Shown here piece by piece: positions 3,148-14,666 of a DNA stretch of 41,506 nt. The stretch lies in assembly GCA_011524395.1 (NCBI GenBank), contig WTKN01000267.1, positions 15,517-57,022 on the forward strand. Direction: 5' to 3'. Position 1 is the stretch's first letter; every line of letters starts with the position of its first letter. The translations under genes and the position numbers were made by a program. Origin of the DNA: Moorena sp. SS36440bin_2. Lineage in GTDB: Bacteria; Cyanobacteriota; Cyanobacteriia; Cyanobacteriales; Coleofasciculaceae. Under the pieces are notes generated by a model, which was not told the origin of the DNA, made no database searches, and saw only the letters and a program-made list of their open reading frames with translations.

Positions 3148-3837
3148 CTACTCACAAAACTCTTGATATAATTCCTCAGTATTACTTTGCCAACGATCTA
3201 AGTCCTCAAACACCGAAATCACTCGTACCACATCTAGGAAAAGATCGCGATCAGCAAAGTAACTCGCATGCTTATATCGAAACTGCTCACCTGGCAATTC
3301 AGCTTTGATAATCCGATACGCTTTACCACCCATAACTTGAAAGGGAATAGTTTCGGTATCTGTAATTAGTTGTCCATTATTATCAGTTGTGTTGTACTCT
3401 ACCCAGTAATAATATTCTTTACCTCGTTGAAGTGGCTGACCTTTACCATCAGCATTGTAAATAACACTAGTCTGATTATGGTTTACCTGATAAGACCATA
3501 AGGCTTGTCCATAGCGAGAGGAACGAACTTGAATGATGTTAACACTTCCTTCCCAAGCAAATCGAGGTTGGTCACTCCAGGTGCGATAGGCAGCAATATT
3601 AGGGGAAATTGAACAAAACTCTCCATGGGTACCTGCTTCATCCTTCTTCCTACGAAAAATATCTCGGATCTTAGCCCATACAGATTGTGTTTCCTGTTTG
3701 GTTTGACTCACTGCTTTCGCTACTTGATTCCCTTGACTTGTAAACGAAGATCCAACTGATACTAATGAGGTCGGAAAATTAATACTCATCGTTCCAGTAA
3801 TTAGCAGTAGATAAAAGACTCTAATTAATCGATACAT
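3148..3837 (-). CDS. Secreted protein of the CHAT block, function unknown
   Basis: The 229-residue protein begins with a basic-hydrophobic stretch (MYRLIRVFYLLLITGTMSINF), a likely signal peptide. The mature part starts after a polar linker with FCSISPNIAAYRTWSDQPRFAWEG near 77-100. It then looks like a beta-sandwich (LWSYQVNHNQTSVIYN, then YYYWVEYN) and ends in a helical tail. I recall similar secreted proteins, with a cysteine followed by a WSD-P-F-W pattern, beside cyanobacterial CHAT/CHASE2 genes, but cannot give a firm family name; DUF928-type is one possibility. It is the last gene of the minus-strand block, 55 nt after the CHAT-CHASE2 gene. An extracytoplasmic partner or ligand for the CHASE2 sensor is a reasonable inference. 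Confidence 0.7.
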   Translation of the reverse strand: MYRLIRVFYLLLITGTMSINFPTSLVSVGSSFTSQGNQVAKAVSQTKQETQSVWAKIRDIFRRKKDEAGTHGEFCSISPNIAAYRTWSDQPRFAWEGSVNIIQVRSSRYGQALWSYQVNHNQTSVIYNADGKGQPLQRGKEYYYWVEYNTTDNNGQLITDTETIPFQVMGGKAYRIIKAELPGEQFRYKHASYFADRDLFLDVVRVISVFEDLDRWQSNTEELYQEFCE

Positions 3838-3892
3838 AGGATTTAAAGGCCAAAGGCTTGCCGGTAATTAATAATTACAAATTAATAATTAA

Positions 3893-6325
3893 CTAAATAA
3901 TATAAAACCAGAGTATAATTGATGGTAAAGCTATAGGAATTAAAATAGAAGCTGAGATATAAGCCTGTAGTCCGATTATTCCATAGACAGCTGTAGCACC
4001 AACTAATATCAATATTGATTGCTGTCGTTTTTGAGGCTTTTGCTGGAGCAGTAGCAGCATTGTTCCTTTTCCTAACAATGCTGCTAATAGAATCATCCAG
4101 CTGTCGGGAATTAATTTTATTGTATGCTTCGATAAAAAATGATGAACCATGTAAGCATGGGCTTCACCTCCGGTAAATACCTTGGGACAAGTATCTGCTG
4201 GCTTTCTAGTTCGATTCAGTGGATCACACCAATATTCAATAGCTAGAGGTAGGGAAAAATTATCCTCAGCTTCATCATATCCCCCAGAGGCAATGATAAC
4301 GACTTGCTGCTCAATGTTAGGAAAGTCACTTTTGAGGAATTCCCAAGCAGGCTTGTGCTCATAAGCCTGTTCTGGAGGAATAGAAAAGTCAATAATATAG
4401 CGCATCCCTAAGGGTAGATTCTTGGGTTTAACAGATGCGATCGCGTAGCGTGGCCTACGGCCAATCGCATTATCCTGGCTACTGACTTGCTGAAGATACT
4501 GACTAACTTGTTGCTGAAAGTTGGTGGTACTTTCAACATTAGGATTTAATCCTATGCCGTGCTTTGGCTGTTGGTGCAACTGGTGTGATAGAGCCAGTAG
4601 ATAGGCAAAAGGACATGACTTTTTGCAGGTGGCATCCTGCGGGAGTTCCATATCCCAACGGAAAAAGGTAATATCCCCTTGTAGACTCCATTTAGGGCTA
4701 GCAATTTTCGGAAACACCTTGCGATTTTTCTCCTGATTGACTCCAAAGACAAACCAGGTATCCTGTTGAGTGACAGCGGATTGAATCGCACTAGCCAGTT
4801 TTTCCTCTCTTGGTTCTTGGGTATAGAGGAGATAATCAATTCCAATTACCTTAGCGCCTGAGTTCGAGAGTTGTCTGACTAATTTGCCAAGGTATTCCCG
4901 TTCCATCGGCTGGGTTTTAAAGCCTTTTATCTCCAGTTGCGCCTGATTGATTGAGTCTTGATCAATAGCAATTAACAGTACAGAGCGTGGCTTCGCAGAG
5001 GATAACCCCTCCCGAGGAAACTGGTTTGTGCTATCACGATAGACAGCTTGAAGAAACGTTCGCCCATCTAGCAACATGTCTTGGACAGGAACCATAGCGC
5101 TAACTAAAAGCACACTAGCTAATGCGATCGCTTCTTTTGGTTTAGGTAGCCACTGCTGAAGTAGTTTCTGGTAACCCCAAGGCTCAATCCGAAATGGCTT
5201 AGCACCATAGGGACTAAAAAACGAAGGAATTAGGTAAGCTGATGGATAAACAAACTTTTCACCTACCTGTAAATTCCGACAAGCTGCCAGCATTGCTTCC
5301 TGGACATCCTGATACTGAGCTAAGCGACTGCAAAATTCTTTGAGAAATACATGAGCAACATTATCATGAACTTCCTCGCGCATGATCACCACTTGCAATC
5401 CTAAATCAGCCAACCGATTGGCTATTTTTAGACCACTACAGGAGTTAAAGACGCACAACTGAAGTCCCTGATTTTTAGCAGTAGTTAGGTATTCCTTTAT
5501 TTCACTGATAGATACCAACTGCTCTGGCGCGATCGCTAATTTTCCATCAGTAACTTTTGTTTCATCACTATGACCCATAAAAAATAGAGCATCCCACCCC
5601 CTTTCATCAGTTATTTCTGCCGCCAGTGCTGCTTTAAGATTTACCCCATCCCCTTGGTGTTGCCAGTCAAAGAACTCTACTTGAGCAACTCCTTTGAGCA
5701 ACTTAATAGCCTGCTTATCTTTCTCCAAATTCAGATCTGTATTATCCCCCAAAATCGCTAAAATTCGAGGTTTACCATGGCGCAATTTATTATCTCGCGC
5801 TATTGTTTCTGCCTGAGTAGTCATCGGAATCCTGGTAATCCGAATTCTCCCACTGGGGATATCCTCTGGAACCAACTGCCATGCTTCCCAAGGAAGCCGT
5901 GCCAATTCCATAGAATCGCAGGCTATAAAAATAGCTACTTCTCCATAGGCTTCTGCTGTCTTCTTTGACTGTGATTCCTTTCTAGCAACAGTGAAAATTT
6001 GATGTTGAACTGTTTCTCGAATGGCCTGTAATTGACCTAACCACCGTTGAAAGACATCCAGAAATACCTCTTTTGCTTCTTCTAATTCATGTCCCAAGTC
6101 ATCGACTACTGGTGTGATGGCACCACTGGATAATTCTCTGGCTCGCAATTTCGGATAAAACTGAAGGTAAAGGTATCGCCACTCCTCATAACAGTCTATT
6201 ACTTTAGCTGGATAGTCCAACTTAGCGGATACTTCCTGTCCGTGATTACCCCGTAAATAAAACAGACAGGATGAATCAGCTTGCCAAATATTTAGTCTAA
6301 AACTACTTTGATAATTAGTTGTCAA
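3893..6325 (-). CDS. CHAT-CHASE2 protein: transmembrane caspase-like protease
   Basis: CHAT domains are caspase-HetF-associated cysteine proteases; CHASE2 is an extracytoplasmic sensory domain. In this 810-residue protein residues 1-375 form a cytoplasmic CHAT region with His252 in FFMGHSD and Cys296 in FNSCSG, the expected dyad. A membrane segment lies near 398-416, CHASE2 covers about 430-735 (LLIAID...GAKVIGIDYLL), and three C-terminal membrane segments lie near 742-760, 770-786 and 790-810. The predicted layout is an internal protease controlled by an external sensor. The TTG start at 6325 sits in the repeat copy at 6321-6355, with GGAG upstream. Residues GRRPRYA are encoded by a GCGTAGCG/GGCC repeat at 4441-4465 read in frame. 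Neighbours are a DUF1822 gene upstream and a secreted protein downstream. Confidence 0.9.
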   Translation of the reverse strand: MTTNYQSSFRLNIWQADSSCLFYLRGNHGQEVSAKLDYPAKVIDCYEEWRYLYLQFYPKLRARELSSGAITPVVDDLGHELEEAKEVFLDVFQRWLGQLQAIRETVQHQIFTVARKESQSKKTAEAYGEVAIFIACDSMELARLPWEAWQLVPEDIPSGRIRITRIPMTTQAETIARDNKLRHGKPRILAILGDNTDLNLEKDKQAIKLLKGVAQVEFFDWQHQGDGVNLKAALAAEITDERGWDALFFMGHSDETKVTDGKLAIAPEQLVSISEIKEYLTTAKNQGLQLCVFNSCSGLKIANRLADLGLQVVIMREEVHDNVAHVFLKEFCSRLAQYQDVQEAMLAACRNLQVGEKFVYPSAYLIPSFFSPYGAKPFRIEPWGYQKLLQQWLPKPKEAIALASVLLVSAMVPVQDMLLDGRTFLQAVYRDSTNQFPREGLSSAKPRSVLLIAIDQDSINQAQLEIKGFKTQPMEREYLGKLVRQLSNSGAKVIGIDYLLYTQEPREEKLASAIQSAVTQQDTWFVFGVNQEKNRKVFPKIASPKWSLQGDITFFRWDMELPQDATCKKSCPFAYLLALSHQLHQQPKHGIGLNPNVESTTNFQQQVSQYLQQVSSQDNAIGRRPRYAIASVKPKNLPLGMRYIIDFSIPPEQAYEHKPAWEFLKSDFPNIEQQVVIIASGGYDEAEDNFSLPLAIEYWCDPLNRTRKPADTCPKVFTGGEAHAYMVHHFLSKHTIKLIPDSWMILLAALLGKGTMLLLLQQKPQKRQQSILILVGATAVYGIIGLQAYISASILIPIALPSIILWFYII
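4441..4465 (-). repeat. GCGTAGCG/GGCC palindromic repeat inside the CHAT-CHASE2 gene
   Basis: Read on the minus strand this is ATTGGCCGTAGGCCACGCTA plus CGCGA, the same sequence as the intergenic repeat at 17735-17759. It is translated in frame within the CHASE2 region. Confidence 0.85.
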
Positions 6326-6355
6326 TCGCTTCGCTCCAATTACAAATTATCAATT
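6321..6355 (-). promoter_or_regulatory. Repeat supplying RBS and TTG start of the CHAT-CHASE2 gene
   Basis: On the minus strand this is nearly identical to the dprA leader at 170-201. It includes GGAGCGAAGCGATTGAC, whose TTG is the start codon. A partial third copy (GGAGCAAAACGAT) lies on the minus strand near 6400-6415. Confidence 0.7.
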
Positions 6356-6474
6356 AAAACTTTAAAAAATTACCACAAATGTATTCGGGGGCTTTACACA
6401 TCGTTTTGCTCCAATTAAAAAATGGTAATTTGTTACTTTTTTATTCCCCATACTCCCGAATCCATATTAAAATA

Positions 6475-7647
6475 TCATAAACATTTATCAGGCTCAAAAG
6501 CGAAGGGAAGTAGGGTTAATGAGGCTCCATTACTTAGAGAAATGGTAGCTACAAATTTTTGGTTCCACCTACCTGCTACTGCAACATGGAGATAACGTTC
6601 ATTTACCAATATCGCTTCAGACACAACACCAGTGAATTCGCTGATTCGTAACTTCATACCAGGGGGAAGTGTATTACCAAGACAGTCTTCGATTAGCAAT
6701 AACAATGCCCATTCTCGAGTATCTTCTGGTGCTTTCTGGTAAATGAACCAGGTAACAGCACATAGTTTGAACAAAATTCCATTTAAATTAACAGTTTGGT
6801 AAGAGCCACGAGCATGAGACGGAACAATTAATCCTTTTTGTCGTCTCAACTCTTTAGCGATCGCTCGATATCTGTCTGGTTCATCGGATACTGGACTAAT
6901 CCGACGCATCGATGGCTTAGAAAAGGTATAGTCAGGAAGCAGTTGCCAAGATAAACAGCTTGCTAACTCATCCATTTCTCCTCGCAGCCACTCTGCTGTA
7001 TTAATGGCTGTTTCAGCAAAGAATGGTAGGATTTCCTGAACAGAACGCTTAGTATCAGCAACTGGAATTGTGATCTCTTGGGAATCTAACCAACGCAAGT
7101 AGTGCAGTAAATGATTTGGTTGCTGATCAAATAAAGACAGAGGTAAATTATAGTTACGCTTACCTTGTGGTAAGTTAGTTGATTCGCGATAGTTAACCAA
7201 CTCGTCGTGACGTAAAACACCTCGAATAATACCCTGTTCTTGGGTTTCTTTAACCTCAATTAGGATATAGAAATGAGCCGCAAGTTCTGGTAATTCAACC
7301 GCAGCTATTGGTACAGTAACTGATTGCTCATTGGAGTTATCTGTGACAATTATACACAGATTAAACTCCCCAACTCTCAAATTACAGACCGTATCAATCA
7401 GATTAGCATAGTCTGGTTGATACACCGAACAGTTTTCCGTAATAATTTGTAGCTGATTAACTCGTTTTCCTAACCATCTTTCAAAACCAAATAATGCTAA
7501 ACAATTTAGATAACTTTGCTCCTGGGTTACTCCCTTGTTAACTTGTTTACTAATCTTTTTTGCTTGCTCAAAGTCTTCAGTTTCTAGCCAAAATGATTCT
7601 AGGATTGGAAGGGTTATATCCATTGAGTCGATACTAGCATTAGTCAT
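6475..7647 (-). CDS. DUF1822 family protein
   Basis: This 390-residue soluble protein resembles the cyanobacterial DUF1822 family, whose function is not known to me. Visible hallmarks are an N-terminal helical part with YLNCLALFGFERWLGKRV (about 45-62) and then a beta-rich part with VCNLRVGEFNLCII and VPIAAVELPELAAHFYILIEV. A middle WLRGEMDELASCLSWQLLP and a C-terminal sandwich rich in LLL and ISLSNGASLTLLPF follow. No signal peptide or membrane segment is visible. It starts 10 nt after the stop of the upstream sigma-like gene, indicating one transcript. CHAT-CHASE2 follows after 149 nt. Given this order it may be a regulator or substrate in the CHAT pathway; that is inference. Confidence 0.75.
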   Translation of the reverse strand: MTNASIDSMDITLPILESFWLETEDFEQAKKISKQVNKGVTQEQSYLNCLALFGFERWLGKRVNQLQIITENCSVYQPDYANLIDTVCNLRVGEFNLCIIVTDNSNEQSVTVPIAAVELPELAAHFYILIEVKETQEQGIIRGVLRHDELVNYRESTNLPQGKRNYNLPLSLFDQQPNHLLHYLRWLDSQEITIPVADTKRSVQEILPFFAETAINTAEWLRGEMDELASCLSWQLLPDYTFSKPSMRRISPVSDEPDRYRAIAKELRRQKGLIVPSHARGSYQTVNLNGILFKLCAVTWFIYQKAPEDTREWALLLLIEDCLGNTLPPGMKLRISEFTGVVSEAILVNERYLHVAVAGRWNQKFVATISLSNGASLTLLPFAFEPDKCL

Positions 7648-7657
7648 TGTTTTATCC

Positions 7658-9175
7658 TTATTTTTTATTGTGTTTATCTAGATATATGCACAGTCGCTGA
7701 GCATATAAACTAGTCATTGAACGGCTTTTAGACGTAGTCAGTTCGGCTACCGCTTCTTGAAAAAATTGTGTGTTCAGGAAAGCCTCGACTTCCTGCATCA
7801 CGTTACTCAAATAATCCAGCTTTGTTGCCTTTTCTTCCAGAGCTAATCCCTTAGTAGTTGTTGACATAAGCTGGAAAAAATTTTCTACACTCAGATACTG
7901 AACGCGATTGAGCAGTTTCCCTGGTGCCAAGACTCGGCTGGCTTGGGAATGATTGGTCATATTCAAAAGGGTTGCTATCTCTTTAAGAGACTTCCCCTCA
8001 CAGTAAAAGAATCGGAAACCTGGGATAACCTTTGAAGCAAAACAAGCGTAACGGCGGCTTTGCTCTAAAGAGGCAATGTGCTCAACCAACGCTTGCCCTA
8101 TAGCGTGATCTAAAAGCTCAATCAGTCCCTGGTCAAGAAAATCCTGCAATTCAGATTGTCCTAAATGATCTATGGTATTAATAGAGTTTAGATCAGGTAA
8201 TTCTTTCGGGAAATACTCCCCAGTTTCTGGATCCTGTGCTTCTAGAGGTTCCCAGATCGGACTTCCTCTGCGGCTCCAAATCTCCTTTTCTTGCAGACCC
8301 TTGGCTATCCTGGTTAGTTCTTTGTGAAGCTCTTGGGTGGAATTGATGATAACACCACGTTCTGGCAACAGGTGGAGCATGTCTTGGAGTTGGTCATCCC
8401 TAGGCTCAAGGCATTGGTTGACTCTATGGTTAAATCTATGGTTAACTCTATTGCGCCGCTGCTGTTGTCTGTCTTGAGAATAGACAGTATGGAAGGTTTC
8501 TACTAGTTTGCGATCGCGTGGATAGAGCTGTTCAAGGTGTCTGAGTTTAACTCGTCCCAACAGTGACCAGTTACTGGACAATGGCAATCCCTGTTCAGCG
8601 AAGCAACCTTTGATGTCAGGATGTTGTTTGGTTTTAAGATATGCCCAATTGTCCAAACTGAGGCGAGCTGATGAGTTCAGACGATAGCTTGCCAAGACAT
8701 CAATCGTAAAAAACTGACCAAGCCCAGGTTCAATCTCACCTTGCTGATTCAGAACCAGTTGAGTTTTGCCATCACTATCGAGAATAATCAGAGTTTTGCC
8801 ATCATCATTGAGTACATAGGATAGCAGCTCACGAAAAGTTAACCGATAGTCAAGGCAAAACTGACTCCCTAGTGTTTTACAAGCCTTTAGGATCGAGCAA
8901 GAAACATAGCACCGAAGACACAGTCCAGCTAACGCCTGGGATTTAGGATCAACAGTAGATAGATCAGCGCGAAACCAGGATAGCAGTAAATCCTGGATAT
9001 CTCGTTCCCACTGAGCTGATAATTTTTCATTTCGATCTAATCCCAGGAGTGTTCGTTCAAAAAACTCCTGTGCTTCCGGTTGATAGCAGACTTTGTAGCC
9101 TTCTTCGTTATTGCCTGGGTCAAATACCCGAATTGTCGAGTATCTAGATGCATCCATAACTGATTGAGACAGCAC
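7658..9175 (-). CDS. Sigma-70-like HTH protein of the CHAT block
   Basis: The 505-residue cytoplasmic protein has a helix-turn-helix-like segment at about 390-425 (YCEGKSLKEIATLLNMTNHS, then QASRVLAP). It resembles the region-4-like segment of large cyanobacterial proteins annotated as sigma-70 family, which sit beside CHAT/DUF1822 genes. The N-terminal part has helical segments and a cysteine-rich stretch (LAGLCLRCYVSCSILKACK, about 82-100). I do not see a clear sigma region 2, so it may be a distant sigma factor or a DNA-binding regulator. It is the first gene of the minus-strand block, 10 nt before the DUF1822 gene. It is divergent from the esterase gene at 9294, with a 118-nt spacer that probably holds both promoters. 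Confidence 0.6.
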   Translation of the reverse strand: MLSQSVMDASRYSTIRVFDPGNNEEGYKVCYQPEAQEFFERTLLGLDRNEKLSAQWERDIQDLLLSWFRADLSTVDPKSQALAGLCLRCYVSCSILKACKTLGSQFCLDYRLTFRELLSYVLNDDGKTLIILDSDGKTQLVLNQQGEIEPGLGQFFTIDVLASYRLNSSARLSLDNWAYLKTKQHPDIKGCFAEQGLPLSSNWSLLGRVKLRHLEQLYPRDRKLVETFHTVYSQDRQQQRRNRVNHRFNHRVNQCLEPRDDQLQDMLHLLPERGVIINSTQELHKELTRIAKGLQEKEIWSRRGSPIWEPLEAQDPETGEYFPKELPDLNSINTIDHLGQSELQDFLDQGLIELLDHAIGQALVEHIASLEQSRRYACFASKVIPGFRFFYCEGKSLKEIATLLNMTNHSQASRVLAPGKLLNRVQYLSVENFFQLMSTTTKGLALEEKATKLDYLSNVMQEVEAFLNTQFFQEAVAELTTSKSRSMTSLYAQRLCIYLDKHNKK

Positions 9176-9293
9176 TCTAGTAGTATATAGATGTCAGGCT
9201 ATTTAACCTGTGCAGTTTTCTCTAGCAACAGCAGCAGGAAAGGGGTTGGGCAATGGTGGAACGATTGAGAGTAATCGGTAATGGGGAAGCACG

Positions 9294-10055: not shown

Positions 10056-10450
10056 TCTGTTCGCGTAGCGTGACCGAACGCGCACGCGTGGCCTTTTGGC
10101 CAAGGTCAAGGACTTTTAGCTAATTTGATTTTTTCGATTCCGAAATCCTGATAACAATTAGAAACTCGGTAGAATACAAAAGTTTGTCAGACTAAGCCTA
10201 GATCCATCTTCTCCCTCTTGCCATCCCTCACTTTCTACACAACTAGGTTTAGTCTACTTGAGTGCAGACTAGTATAATTACTCCCCTATAAATCTTGTTT
10301 CAAATTAACAGACGACTAGGGTGTAAAGTGTCAAAATGATAGATTTCACAAAAAATTTACAAAATATTGAAATTCTTTCAGTGTAGATAACACAAACTTG
10401 ATGAGGAGTTGGTCACTTTAAGAGGCTTAGCTAATCAACCAGAGAACTCT
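10056..10450. other. Intergenic region with GCGTAGCG/GGCC repeat
   Basis: A repeat at 10060-10110 holds GCGTAGCGTGACC and the palindrome TTGGCC/GGCCAA on either side of a T-rich centre. The remainder is AT-rich and must contain the rfb promoter. No further gene is visible. Confidence 0.7.
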
Positions 10451-10996
10451 ATGAACGTTATTGAAACTAAAATACCCGAAGTCTTAATTCTTGAACCCCG
10501 TGTCTTTGGTGATGACCGTGGTTTTTTCTTTGAAAGCTACAATCAAAGAGTTCTAGCAGATAAAGCTGGGATCACTGCTGAGTTTGTCCAGGATAACTAT
10601 TCCCGTTCAGCCCAAGGAGTGCTTCGAGGATTACACTACCAGATTGAGCAGCCCCAAGGTAAATTGGTGCGGGTTTTACTGGGTACTGTATTTGATGTGG
10701 CAGTGGATATTAGAAAAAGCTCCCCGACCTTTGGACAGTGGGTTAGTTGTTTGCTGAGTGCAGAAAATAAACAACAAATCTGGATTCCGGCTGGATTCGC
10801 TCACGGATTCCTGGTTGTATCTGAATTTGCTGAAGTTTTATATAAGACTACTGACTTTTACGCTCCTGATCATGAGCGGAGTATTTTGTGGAATGACCCT
10901 GACCTAGCCATTCATTGGCCTGTGACCGACTCTCCCAGTCTGTCGGCTAAAGATCAAGCAGGTAAGTCTTTCAAAACAGCCGAGGTTTTTTCATGA
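10451..10996 (+). CDS. rfbC: dTDP-4-dehydrorhamnose 3,5-epimerase
   Basis: RfbC (RmlC) epimerises dTDP-4-keto-6-deoxyglucose at C3 and C5, the third step of dTDP-L-rhamnose synthesis. From ATG 10451 the protein is 181 residues, the usual length, and starts MNVIETKIPEVLILEPRVFG like other RmlC proteins. The catalytic base His62 (RGLHYQ) and Tyr131 (VLYKTT) are present, with WIPAGFAHGF at 111-120. A TTG at 10409 would add 14 residues, but GAGGAG directly abuts it, so I prefer the ATG. The stop overlaps the rfbD start by 4 nt, so the two are translationally coupled. Confidence 0.95.
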   Translation: MNVIETKIPEVLILEPRVFGDDRGFFFESYNQRVLADKAGITAEFVQDNYSRSAQGVLRGLHYQIEQPQGKLVRVLLGTVFDVAVDIRKSSPTFGQWVSCLLSAENKQQIWIPAGFAHGFLVVSEFAEVLYKTTDFYAPDHERSILWNDPDLAIHWPVTDSPSLSAKDQAGKSFKTAEVFS

Positions 10997-11883
10997 AAAA
11001 AATCTTACTCACTGGCATCACTGGACAAGTGGGTCAAGAATTGCAACATACTCTGAGTCCCCTAGGCCAAGTAATCGGTGTGGGGCGCTCGGATATGGAC
11101 TTAGCTCAGCCAGAGAGTATTCGTCAGGTAATTGATCAGATTAAGCCTGACGTGATTGTCAATGCAGCGGCTTACACGGCTGTGGATAAAGCAGAGACAG
11201 AACTGGCATTGGCTAAATCAATTAATGCTGTTGCTCCAACCACCATGGCAGAGGAAGCTCAGAATTTAGGGGCGATCCTGCTCCATATTTCCACTGACTA
11301 TGTGTTCGATGGCAAAAAAAATACTCCTTATACGGAGCAAGACACTCCTAACCCCATCGGTTCCTATGGTAAGTCAAAACTGGAAGGGGAAGAAGGGGTA
11401 AAGCAAAAATGCGATCGCAATCTCATCCTGAGGACTGCTTGGGTTTACGGTAGTCGTGGTCATGGCAACTTTGTCAAAACCATGTTACGACTGGGGGCTG
11501 AGCGAGAAGAGCTTCGGGTAGTAGCGGATCAAGTGGGTACTCCTACCTGGGCGAAGGATATAGCAGTAACCATTACTCAACTTTTGCAAGCAATGGATTC
11601 TAATCCAGTGGTAGGGGGAATCTATCACTTCACCAACAGTGGTGTAACTAGTTGGTATGACTTTGCCGTTGCCATCTTTGAAGAAGCAAAACTCCTGGGC
11701 TTCCCCTTAAAATTGCAGCGAGTTGTCCCAATTACTACTCCAGAATACCCCACCCCAGCTCAGCGTCCAGCTTACTCAGTTCTCTCAAACCAGAAAATAT
11801 CCCAAACCTTGGGAACCTATCCGCCCCATTGGCGTCAATCTTTGAGGCAAATGCTAGCAGAACTTTATCAAAAGCTTGAGTAA
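10993..11883 (+). CDS. rfbD: dTDP-4-dehydrorhamnose reductase
   Basis: RfbD (RmlD) reduces dTDP-4-keto-L-rhamnose to dTDP-L-rhamnose with NAD(P)H, the last step of the pathway. The 296-residue short-chain dehydrogenase-type protein has the nucleotide-binding GITGQVGQEL (8-17), NAAAYTAVDKAE (57-68), STDYVFDG (100-107) and the catalytic Tyr125/Lys129 of YGKSK. The ATG overlaps the rfbC stop (ATGA). A spacer of about 310 nt made of repeats separates it from rfbA, so rfbA may be transcribed on its own. Confidence 0.95.
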   Translation: MKKILLTGITGQVGQELQHTLSPLGQVIGVGRSDMDLAQPESIRQVIDQIKPDVIVNAAAYTAVDKAETELALAKSINAVAPTTMAEEAQNLGAILLHISTDYVFDGKKNTPYTEQDTPNPIGSYGKSKLEGEEGVKQKCDRNLILRTAWVYGSRGHGNFVKTMLRLGAEREELRVVADQVGTPTWAKDIAVTITQLLQAMDSNPVVGGIYHFTNSGVTSWYDFAVAIFEEAKLLGFPLKLQRVVPITTPEYPTPAQRPAYSVLSNQKISQTLGTYPPHWRQSLRQMLAELYQKLE

Positions 11884-12195
11884 TTGCTATAAGCATAGGG
11901 AGTAGGGAATCGGGAATCGGGAATCGGGAATCGGGAATCGGGAACAGGAAAAACATCCTGTGTACCTGATTACTATCAGAAGCGCTATAGTTCAAGTTCA
12001 CCCTTGGCCTTTGGCCACGCGTGCGCATTCAACCTACCAACCTGCCAACCTTCAATCCTAAACCTTCAACCTTAAACCTTCAACCTGCCAACCTACCAAC
12101 CTGCCAACCTTGGGCAAAAGGCCACGCTACGCGTTCAACTTTAATAATTCCTATTTCATAATTTCAGACTTTATAGTATTGACTTCATATAGCTT
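11884..12195. repeat. Repeat-filled spacer between rfbD and rfbA
   Basis: It holds five perfect GGGAATC units at 11905-11939 plus a sixth variant. Next come a TTGGCCTTTGGCCACGCGTG palindromic repeat at about 12003-12027 and a degenerate 7-nt-period CAACCTN array at 12029-12107. A GGCCACGCTACGCG repeat at 12108-12137 and an AT-rich stretch that probably carries the rfbA promoter complete the spacer. There is no gene. Confidence 0.85.
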
Positions 12196-13269
12196 ATGAA
12201 AGCACTAATTCTTTCTGGGGGAAAAGGCACTCGTTTACGTCCTCTAACTTATACTGGTGCCAAACAGTTAGTACCTGTTGCTAATAAACCAATTTTGTGG
12301 TATGGGCTGGAAGCCATTATCGCTGCTGGTATTACTGATATCGGTATTATTATCAGTCCTGAAACTGGGGAAGAAGTTAAGACTAAAACAGGAAATGGCG
12401 ATCGCTTCGGAGCCAACATTACCTATATCCTCCAAGACCAACCCTTAGGACTTGCCCACGCCGTTAAAGTCGCCCAACCCTTTCTCGGAGATTCTCCCTT
12501 TGTGATGTACTTGGGAGACAACTTGGTTCAAAGTGAGCTTAACTTATTTGTAGAGAATTTCCAGAACAAAAATCTGGATGCTCTGACTCTGCTAAGAGCA
12601 GTAGAAAATCCTACTGCCTTTGGTGTTGCCAAAGTCGATGAATTTGGGCGAGTGTTGCAGCTAGTAGAAAAACCCAAAGTTCCTCCTTCTAATCTAGCAC
12701 TGGTAGGTGTTTACCTATTTTCTCCTGTTATCCATCAAGCAATTGCTAACATCGAGCCTTCTCCTAGAGGGGAACTGGAAATTACCGATGCGATTCAATA
12801 CTTGATTGATCAGCAAAAAAATGTAGAAGCTTTTCAAATCAAAGGTTGGTGGCTCGATACTGGGAAAAAAGATGACTTGTTAGCTGCTAACCAGATTATT
12901 CTAGATACTTGCCTAGAATCTGCTGTTGATGGTGAAATTGACACCGAAAGTAGAATTAGCGGACGGGTACAGATTGGTAAGGGATCTTATATTACTAATT
13001 GTACCATTCGTGGTCCAGTTACCATTGGTGAAAACTGCCATCTAGAAAACTGCTTTATTGGTCCATATACTAGCATTGCTGACCAAGCTACTTTGGTAGA
13101 CGCTGATATTGAGCATAGCGTGATTCTAAAAGGGGCTAAATTAACGGGAATTCATCAACGAATTGTTGATAGTTTAATTGGAGAAAGAGCTCAAGTAAAA
13201 GCTGCACCCCAACATCCAAAAGCCTTACGATTCATGATTGGTGATGACTCACAAGTTGAACTAACTTAA
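12196..13269 (+). CDS. rfbA: Glucose-1-phosphate thymidylyltransferase, long form
   Basis: RfbA (RmlA) makes dTDP-glucose from dTTP and glucose-1-phosphate, the first step towards dTDP-rhamnose. The 357-residue protein has the nucleotidyltransferase signature GGKGTRLRPLT (8-18), QPLGLAHA (82-89), LGDN with Asp108, and GWWLDTGK. It is longer than the roughly 290-residue enterobacterial enzyme. The extra C-terminal part (about 245-340, SRISGRVQIGKGSYI and similar) is a left-handed beta-helix of hexapeptide repeats, as in the StrD-type long form. The start is ATG 12196 and no strong ribosome-binding site is visible. Confidence 0.93.
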   Translation: MKALILSGGKGTRLRPLTYTGAKQLVPVANKPILWYGLEAIIAAGITDIGIIISPETGEEVKTKTGNGDRFGANITYILQDQPLGLAHAVKVAQPFLGDSPFVMYLGDNLVQSELNLFVENFQNKNLDALTLLRAVENPTAFGVAKVDEFGRVLQLVEKPKVPPSNLALVGVYLFSPVIHQAIANIEPSPRGELEITDAIQYLIDQQKNVEAFQIKGWWLDTGKKDDLLAANQIILDTCLESAVDGEIDTESRISGRVQIGKGSYITNCTIRGPVTIGENCHLENCFIGPYTSIADQATLVDADIEHSVILKGAKLTGIHQRIVDSLIGERAQVKAAPQHPKALRFMIGDDSQVELT

Positions 13270-13568
13270 GGTAAGCATTTAGCGGTCAGCGGTCAGCCGT
13301 CAGCCTTGAGCTAAAAGATCACGCTAAGCGAACAGTTTAAAATAAACCTCAAAATTTTGAATTTAATAGTTCGAAATTAATTAGAGTTGAATATCTGGTG
13401 AAAAGCCTATATAAGCATATGCTGAGAGCTGAGAGCTGAGAGCTGAGAGCTGAGAGCTGAGAGCTGAGAGCTTGAGAGCTGAGAGCTGATGGCTGATAGC
13501 TGAGAGCTGAGAGCTGATAGCTTACTTTTTTCCTAAGCAACTGAAGTACTGACATACTCAAACTAATC
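13270..13568. repeat. Heptamer arrays between rfbA and rfbB
   Basis: It holds GGTCAGC-type heptamers at about 13284-13304 and a degraded GCGTAGCG-type repeat (ATCACGCTAAGCGAAC) at 13306-13334. A long GAGAGCT array follows at about 13424-13522, nearly perfect with a few slipped or substituted units. It ends 47 nt before the rfbB start. Confidence 0.85.
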
Positions 13569-14666
13569 ATGAATTCTTCTGAACAAAAATCCCTGACAAC
13601 TAGACAACCTCGCCAATTACTAGTAACAGGTGGTGCAGGATTTATTGGCTCCAATTTTGTTCATCACTGGTGTGAACAGTACCCAGGGGATCGCGTAGTG
13701 GTACTGGATGCTCTGACCTATGCTGGTAACCGCCAGAATCTAGCCGGTCTGGAAGAGAAAGCCAATTTGCGGTTTGTCCAGGGAGACATATGCGATCGCA
13801 CTCTAGTAGACCGCCTGCTCCAGGAAGAAAGCATCGACACTGTCGCCCATTTTGCTGCTGAATCCCACGTTGACCGCTCCATTTTAGGACCCGATGCCTT
13901 TATCCGCACCAATGTTGTCGGTTCCTTCACCCTACTAGAGTCCTTCCGGCAAAAATGGCAAAATCAAGGACAACCAACGGATTATCGATTCCTCCATGTT
14001 TCCACCGATGAAGTGTATGGCAGTCTAAGTGCTGATGACCCAGCCTTCTGTGAAACCACACCCTATGCCCCCAACAGTCCATATTCTGCTTCCAAAGCTG
14101 GCAGTGACCATCTTGCCCGGGCTTATTACCATACTTATGGGGTCCCCACTATTATCACTAATTGCTCCAATAACTACGGACCCTATCATTTTCCAGAAAA
14201 ATTAATTCCCCTGATGTGCATCAACATCCTGTTAGGCAAATCTCTACCAGTCTACGGGGATGGACAAAATATTCGAGATTGGCTCTATGTCGGTGATCAT
14301 TGCCGTGCTTTAGATGTGGTGATTCACAAAGGTCAACCAGGGGAAACCTATAACATTGGTGGCAATAACGAAGTCAAAAACCTTGACCTAGTTCACCAGA
14401 TTTGCGAGCTGATGAATGAATTAGCCCCTGATCTACCCGTCGCTCCAGCGGAACAATTAATTACCTTTGTCAAAGACCGCCCAGGCCATGACCGTCGCTA
14501 TGCTATTGATGCGACTAAAATTAAAACTGAATTGGGTTGGGAACCAACAGAAACCTTAGCAGGTGGACTACGTAAAACCATTGAGTGGTATCTCAGCAAC
14601 CGGGATTGGTGGCAACCATTGCTATCCCAAGAGTATCAAGCTTATTATCAGAAAGTTTATGCGTAG
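13569..14666 (+). CDS. rfbB: dTDP-glucose 4,6-dehydratase
   Basis: RfbB (RmlB) is the NAD-dependent second enzyme of dTDP-rhamnose synthesis, converting dTDP-glucose to dTDP-4-keto-6-deoxyglucose. The 365-residue protein has GGAGFIGSN (21-29), DALTYAG (47-53), [11 protein letters not shown] (95-105), STDEVYG (145-151) and the catalytic Tyr172/Lys176 in [19 protein letters not shown] and the C-terminal [11 protein letters not shown] are typical of RmlB. It completes the four-gene rhamnose set. The first roughly 15 residues are poorly conserved in character, so a slightly later start is possible. Confidence 0.95.

Follow-up and report, generated by a model that had tools for sequence, protein, structure and literature searches.

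The stretch of DNA considered here, a window of 41,506 nucleotides (nt) from contig WTKN01000267.1 of the cyanobacterium Moorena sp. SS36440bin_2, carries on its minus strand a compact block of four genes, in which a membrane sensor that contains its own caspase-like protease stands beside a sigma-like gene, the whole being preceded by a promoter-like site. Read along that strand, the genes encode a sigma-like protein of 505 amino acids (aa) (7658..9175, with a GTG start and an alternative in-frame ATG at 9157), a DUF1822 protein of 390 aa (6475..7647; Pfam E 4.5e-39), a CHAT-CHASE2 membrane protein of 810 aa (3893..6325, with a TTG start), and an apparently secreted protein of 229 aa (3148..3837). 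An earlier interpretation made from the letters of this DNA (the sequence-only reading) had described four such genes separated by 10, 149 and 55 nt, and the open reading frames (ORFs) are confirmed at these positions; as the ORFs (at least 60 aa) were called mechanically, their starts can be too long. The promoter-like site, AAAACTGCACAGGTTAAATAGCCTGACATCTATATA, lies at 9184..9219 on the same strand, and scores 28.4 bits by a matrix trained on the upstream regions of relatives. The host genome measures 7.75 Mb, and its nearest named relatives are Moorena, with 91-96% identity over the CHAT-CHASE2 protein.

Proteins of the block

In the 810-aa protein, Pfam recognizes a CHAT domain at residues 107-355 (E 7.6e-9) and a CHASE2 domain at 435-749 (E 1.8e-17), and a hydropathy scan places CHASE2 between a single hydrophobic segment (400-418) and a group of three (742-810), in agreement with the membrane anchor and topology predicted by the sequence-only reading. 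The His252/Cys296 dyad of CHAT, which that reading had called intact, is invariant in all 82 aligned CHAT-CHASE2 proteins, window included, and in the ten paralogues of the host genome. About 100 conserved residues precede CHAT in this protein and in the host's own paralogues, and these are perhaps the EACC2 domain. The host genome has ten DUF1822 stretches and a CHAT relative adjoins every one of them; at Pfam E <= 1, eight of these ten CHAT proteins (window included) contain CHASE2 and one a periplasmic-binding domain (L018; loci and genomes are labelled L and G), while the 456-aa relative in L014 has no Pfam match at that threshold. In seven cyanobacterial genomes, the CHAT matches number from 26 to 71 per genome.

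The DUF1822 protein has been described as a tetratricopeptide repeat (TPR) protein (Kaur et al. 2021, PMC8195603), whereas the structural model obtained here (mean predicted local distance difference test, pLDDT, of 87.7) is of the alpha+beta type, containing helices and, towards the C-terminus, a beta-rich part, and the fold search with it returned three solved structures at E <= 0.001, over part of the chain, the best being an ApaG domain (E 2.2e-4). The model does not support the TPR assignment. It has a linker of low confidence at residues 249-253, a candidate site for cleavage by CHAT. The 229-aa protein gave nothing meaningful in Pfam, and has no PF06051 match of its own; it is rather through its family of 62 members that it appears related to DUF928, since PF06051 is found at E <= 0.1 in 31 of 50 members (best 3.2e-8). 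A start resembling a signal peptide, by a crude test, is present in 56 of the 62 members as against 53 of 208 control ORFs.

Conservation of the four-gene block

As a check, the sequence-only reading had suggested looking in cyanobacterial genomes for the four families together and in the same order, and such a conserved cassette is indeed found. Named genomes were scanned with three CHAT-CHASE2 proteins, and the best 80 of 195 confirmed relatives (L021-L100) were retained, to which the window (L019) and a paralogue from its own genome (L020) were added. With gene order judged by midpoints on one strand, 45 of the 82 loci show the succession sigma-like, DUF1822, CHAT-CHASE2 and secreted gene, with median gaps of 7, 61 and -8 nt; another eight show the first three in that order, and in two the sigma-like gene comes last, after the other three. 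All four families are together in 46 of the best 80 loci; the partial sets are CHAT with DUF1822 and the sigma-like gene (8), CHAT with DUF1822 and the secreted gene (3), CHAT with DUF1822 (1), CHAT with the secreted gene only (10), and CHAT alone (12), some of the last being at contig ends. Where at least 3.5 kb is available upstream of CHAT-CHASE2 (64 loci), the sigma-like gene and DUF1822 are both present in 47, DUF1822 only in two, the sigma-like gene only in none, and neither in 15. The association is therefore more than chance. A block that combines such a protease-bearing membrane sensor with a sigma-like gene is common to many filamentous cyanobacteria. The loss of this neighbourhood, or of the dyad, had been named beforehand as the outcome that would speak against the proposal; neither was found, both being conserved.

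The same association can be approached from the sigma-like gene, by means of 40 such genes taken from profile matches, mostly one per genome, with a profile built from CHAT-linked members. The next gene is DUF1822 in 34 of the 40, with a CHAT gene also in the stretch in 28 of these and a secreted gene also in 15, and in no locus does CHAT stand beside the sigma-like gene without DUF1822. In the six exceptions the locus reaches a contig end (L252), has the secreted gene upstream (L235), or has none of these genes downstream (L243, L244, L251 and L253). DUF1822 is thus the closest partner of the sigma-like protein, and the likeliest candidate for its restraint. In a sister group of loci carrying a smaller sigma gene, DUF1822 lies within the fetched stretch in 28 of 30.

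Some particular loci may be recorded at this point. In L243, L244, L251 and L253, DUF1822 and CHAT are absent from the stretch downstream of the sigma-like gene, and L251 keeps a site of 33.5 bits upstream. Six loci of Okeania and Hydrocoleum (L051, L052, L059, L064, L071, L099) have CHAT-CHASE2 with neither the sigma-like gene nor DUF1822 nearby, and contain a motif-like match in antisense within a conserved upstream ORF of about 470 aa. In L040, L049, L058, L061, L069 and L080, CHAT-CHASE2 adjoins apparent secreted TPR genes, whether the sigma-like gene and DUF1822 are present or not. Finally, genes for proteins of 190-200 aa with a LuxR-type helix-turn-helix (HTH) lie downstream of several cassettes of the window's clade (L017:13152-13724, and similar genes in L030-L036), often with a promoter-like site of their own.

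A promoter-like motif that changes with the sigma-like protein

A bipartite motif was found in the upstream regions (250 nt) of 43 de-duplicated sigma-like genes, with a log-likelihood of 260 compared with 94, 85 and 91 in three shuffles. Its consensus is TGCATAAG–N12–AGANATA, the second half being RCATCTA in the clade of the window. The search gave 7.4 per sequence before sigma-like genes and 3.0 before other genes. A matrix of 36 columns was made from 45 sequences, 31 of which exceed 10 bits; the window is outside this training list, and its close relatives L021 and L022 are inside it. In the window, the -35-like half TGCACAGG occupies 9214-9207 and the -10-like half ACATCTA occupies 9194-9188. 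The site is separated from the GTG start by 8 nt and from the alternative ATG by 26. A site of at least 17 bits within 350 nt precedes 34 of 53 sigma-like genes, window included, these being mostly training sequences. Among the upstream regions of 20 further sigma-like genes (19 genomes, 17 of them without an exact match to the first pattern of the motif), four reach at least 14 bits, five lie between 8 and 11 bits, and eleven have 6.4 bits or less.

Over the 80 loci (1.36 Mb) the matrix finds 111 matches; shuffled sequences give 2, 0 and 0 and the reversed matrix 2, and these controls, together with a reversed pattern, reject chance or base composition as the origin of the motif. A sigma-like gene follows 33 of the matches. 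The remaining 78 include 61 with the start of a gene on the same strand within 300 nt and two with solely one on the opposite strand, whereas 799 random intergenic positions show no bias of direction (271 and 237, respectively). The distance between the halves is also constrained, being of 12 nt in 39 cases, 13 in 17, 14 in six and 15 in six, with none at 6-11 or 16-19. Candidate motifs in front of the other three genes of the block were set aside because those stretches are mostly coding sequence of the preceding gene. The CHAT-CHASE2 gene of G061, which is separated from the sigma-like gene and DUF1822, has a motif site of its own.

When 55 sigma-like proteins are arranged in a tree, the letters preceding the terminal TA of the motif are clustered, though imperfectly, requiring 5 changes compared with 8.8 after shuffling (none of 500 shuffles as low). 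Before genes other than the sigma-like ones, sites in the window's clade have TGCA at -35 in 10 of 11 and lack G at position 2 of the -10 in all 11; in the Nodosilinea clade there is TGAA in 15 of 17 and that G in 17 of 17; and in the rest TGCA in 42 of 46 and the G in 38 of 46. The split is the same before the sigma-like genes themselves, and as all three clades contributed sites to the training set, the matrix favours none of them outright. Additional loci, part of them from species used before, agree with this, giving in the window's clade six sites of at least 16 bits in nine loci, all without the G; in the Nodosilinea clade TGAATAAG in three of four; and in the rest 15 sites of at least 15 bits, 12 with the G. 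A single genome, G091, has two sigma-like genes, one of each clade, with the two types of -10.

Distribution of the motif and the putative regulon

Of 148 genomes belonging to the order, a long match to the sigma-like protein (E <= 1e-40) is present in 43, and 105 were counted as being without it, among them two that give weak matches (G089, G072) and several in which fragments occur. The first pattern has 138 exact matches in the former and 33 in the latter (means 3.21 and 0.31; Mann-Whitney p 8.6e-6), and the second variant occurs in 13 of the 43 compared with two of the 105, which share one identical site (Fisher p 1.6e-6), although both p values overstate independence because the genomes are related, and are guides only. 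The reversed control pattern, counted by eye, occurs 7 times in the 43 genomes and 26 times in the 105. One second-variant site, about 680 nt from the sigma-like gene of G091 contig C28, was not counted as lying directly upstream of that gene.

The stretches around exact matches in G042, G061, G091 and G084 provide 72 pairs of site and gene, with a median distance of 53 nt; five of the sites are inside other ORFs, and 26 of the genes have a signal-peptide-like start by the same crude test. Fifty genes were kept (site within 300 nt and not inside an ORF, at least 100 aa, distinct, L185 excluded), their proteins often being cut at the end of the stretch. Among the best 25 of the 118 Pfam families listed for them are TPR_12 in 14, CHAT in eight and ABC ATPases in three. 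Twenty genes behind the motif inspected singly include two caspases (L147, L190), a subtilase, and pilin-like, kinase, CAP/RTX and AAA_35 proteins, and eight of the twenty have no Pfam match. Such a distribution, and the halves that change with the clade, fit a sigma-like factor with a regulon of its own. As a separate observation, proteins of 175-197 aa that look alike lie directly behind motif sites in three genomes (L140:2922-3482, L184:369-896, L167:329-922), the one in L140 having no Pfam match.

The proposed relay and its alternatives

These elements could be joined in a single relay. The CHASE2 ectodomain would hold or release the CHAT cysteine protease that the same chain carries on its cytoplasmic side, probably aided by the secreted DUF928-like protein; once active, CHAT would inactivate DUF1822, the constant partner of the sigma-like protein; and the latter, thus freed, would transcribe from bipartite promoters with a -35-like TGCATAAG and a -10-like AGANATA or RCATCTA, switching on its own cassette and a group of genes among which those for secreted TPR-CHAT proteins, further proteases and proteins of the envelope are prominent. 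We put this relay forward tentatively, giving it slightly less than an even chance. The wider proposal, in which a protease built into a sensor would free a strongly divergent and hitherto unrecognized sigma factor with an evolving promoter code of its own, and one protease would raise an arsenal of secreted proteases in a cascade passing through transcription, is possible with a little less assurance still. The transcription arm rests on the evidence of the motif, which the sigma-like protein quite probably reads in one manner or another. For the proteolytic arm the basis is the association of the genes and, by analogy, the precedent of Csx29, a CHAT protein that cleaves the sigma inhibitor Csx30 (PMC10028731). 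A path from signal through proteolysis to transcription had also been the proposal of the sequence-only reading; it has gained a conserved unit, a conserved dyad, a concordant topology, and a link to transcription in the form of the promoter-like motif and putative regulon, but its outline had already been published (PMC8195603).

Several observations weigh against such a relay, and these may be grouped as follows: (i) the 505-aa protein matches sigma-70 region 4 of Pfam below threshold (E 0.56), region 4 is found at E <= 0.1 in four of 48 members of its family and region 2 is absent, in both cases among the best 25 of 41 families listed, a profile search of solved structures with the family gave six matches, none of them a sigma factor, and the fold search with its model gave no match at E <= 0.001; (ii) an exact first-pattern match is lacking in 21 of the 43 genomes that have the protein, 102 of the 138 come from six genomes (G042, G133, G084, G061, G091 and G139), and in the genome of the window there is no match to this pattern and two to the second variant; (iii) the second Moorena paralogue (L017, L032, L033) has no motif site, and in nine of the 19 further genomes no recognizable site (below 7 bits) precedes the sigma-like gene; (iv) 15 of the 64 CHAT-CHASE2 loci with sufficient upstream sequence have neither the sigma-like gene nor DUF1822 nearby; (v) and finally, the relatedness of the genomes lessens the force of the p values given above.

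The sequence evidence for the 505-aa protein as a sigma factor is weak. Of the HTH resembling sigma region 4 that the sequence-only reading had described, the HTH itself stands, near residues 377-416 in the model (pLDDT 80.6; predicted template modelling score, pTM, 0.50), whereas the protein of the window on its own gives no significant sigma match, that to sigma70-ECF of NCBIfam being also sub-threshold (0.014). The best fold match, at E 0.025 with a TM score of 0.16, is a chain of an RNA polymerase complex, and the first and third matches (E 0.025 and 1.3) are the F chains of such complexes, which we take to be sigma subunits. It is for this reason that the protein could instead be an activator that binds DNA through its HTH, the motif being its operator, or half operator and half an ordinary -10, with DUF1822 as co-regulator and CHAT still in control. 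The faint region 4, a region 2 whose evidence is not significant, and an HTH-like C-terminal part would all agree with this, but the halves of the motif keep a spacing of 12-15 nt and one direction relative to the genes, and both shift with the clade of the protein, which a single HTH does not readily explain. Moreover, residues 153-194 of the sigma-like family align with region 2 of the small sigma (E 0.0011, at a probability of 21%), and the 505-aa gene takes the place that this smaller gene, similar to those of the extracytoplasmic function (ECF) sigma factors, has in the sister DUF1822 loci. An activator is on these grounds rather unlikely.

The sister loci, found in the same genomes, resemble the cassette in that sigma, DUF1822 and CHAT adjoin, and differ in the size of the sigma (about 220 aa, ECF-like), in the detection of regions 2 and 4 in some members (region 4 in nine of 29, region 2 in three), and in the motif found upstream. 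The small-sigma profile has weak matches in the PDB to SigK and SigE, and this protein is better supported as a sigma factor than that of 505 aa. Its upstream motif, GTAAATGTAAAGTTTTGTAACAAAT (own paralogues and L102-L130; 34 de-duplicated sequences), has a log-likelihood of 196 compared with 79-86 in shuffles, and its reverse complement resembles the HLR1 box of RpaB.

A second alternative concerns the protease, which might be mainly an effector of death or defence that cleaves itself or host proteins, the role of the sigma-like protein and DUF1822 being limited to regulating the expression of such effectors and CHAT not acting on DUF1822. Kaur et al. 2021 (PMC8195603) class such proteins with counter-invader and apoptosis-like systems and propose activation as autopeptidases, and the genes behind the motif include the eight TPR-CHAT proteins (of 50, among the 25 best of 118 families listed) and the two caspases. 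On the other hand, PADLOC finds no defence match in the four proteins of the window, and the fact that CHAT never stands without DUF1822 beside the sigma-like gene in the 40 loci suggests a link between the three, so that we judge an effector acting in this way unlikely, and somewhat more so than an activator. That another regulator, inherited together with the cassette, reads the motif is improbable: exact matches are lacking in roughly half of the genomes that have the protein, and one to four occur in 21 of the 105 that lack it, but 0.31 per genome in the latter is about the level of the reversed control, and both halves follow the sigma-like clade.

Relation to known systems and significance

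The core of the system was already predicted by Kaur et al. 2021 (PMC8195603), whose EACC2-caspase systems unite caspase proteins carrying sensors, CHASE2 among them, with neighbouring genes for DUF1822 and an ECF sigma factor; signalling from protease to transcription is proposed there. Their proteins have a constant N-terminal part, a caspase-like domain and a variable C-terminal sensor, which may be CHASE2, and the CHAT and CHASE2 domains of the window protein correspond to this, as do the paralogues of its genome, where the C-terminal sensor varies between CHASE2 and a periplasmic-binding domain, and the DUF1822 and sigma-like neighbours in 47 of 64 loci, sigma-like being understood by position, motif and weak similarity. 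The difference lies in the sigma-like protein, which here has about 500 aa and is far from the ECF profiles. In the available part of that paper there is no occurrence of DUF928, promoter or regulon. Three things seem to be new: a fourth gene resembling DUF928, a promoter-like motif whose letters vary with the clade, and a putative regulon behind it. In the literature searched, CHAT domain, ECF sigma factor and cyanobacteria, or CHAT domain, CHASE2 and cyanobacteria, were not found together, and there were few mentions of DUF1822 or DUF928.

The type III-E CRISPR system CASP (PMC10028731) likewise combines a CHAT protease with a sigma factor and a further protein that restrains it, but its trigger is target RNA through Cas7-11, and that of the cassette would be a CHASE2 membrane protein. 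DUF1822 would be comparable to Csx30 in its proposed role of restraint. The CASP hallmark is TPR-CHAT with Cas7-11, whereas the CHAT domain of the window is fused to CHASE2 and has no TPR match in Pfam, CRISPR genes not having been searched for.

In the relay of RseA, DegS and sigma-E, an envelope signal leads to proteolysis of the restraint and release of sigma, the restraint being in the membrane and the protease separate. The scheme of signal, proteolysis and release would be alike in the cassette, with the difference that its proposed restraint is a soluble protein and its protease is built into the membrane sensor. Envelope stress relays of the RseA/DegS/sigma-E type are named in PMC10028731.

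Little is known of the substrates of many cyanobacterial CHAT and caspase-like proteins, and a cassette with a candidate substrate, a defined promoter and a regulon ready for reporters opens this question to bench work. If the 505-aa protein is a sigma factor, a whole branch would have been missed by the current profiles, and the coupled change of clade and promoter halves would be a natural code with which to map contacts.

Elsewhere in the window, the ORFs at 10409-14666 resemble, from their translations, the set of the dTDP-rhamnose pathway, and a family 10 glycosyl hydrolase (Pfam) lies at 1339-2331.

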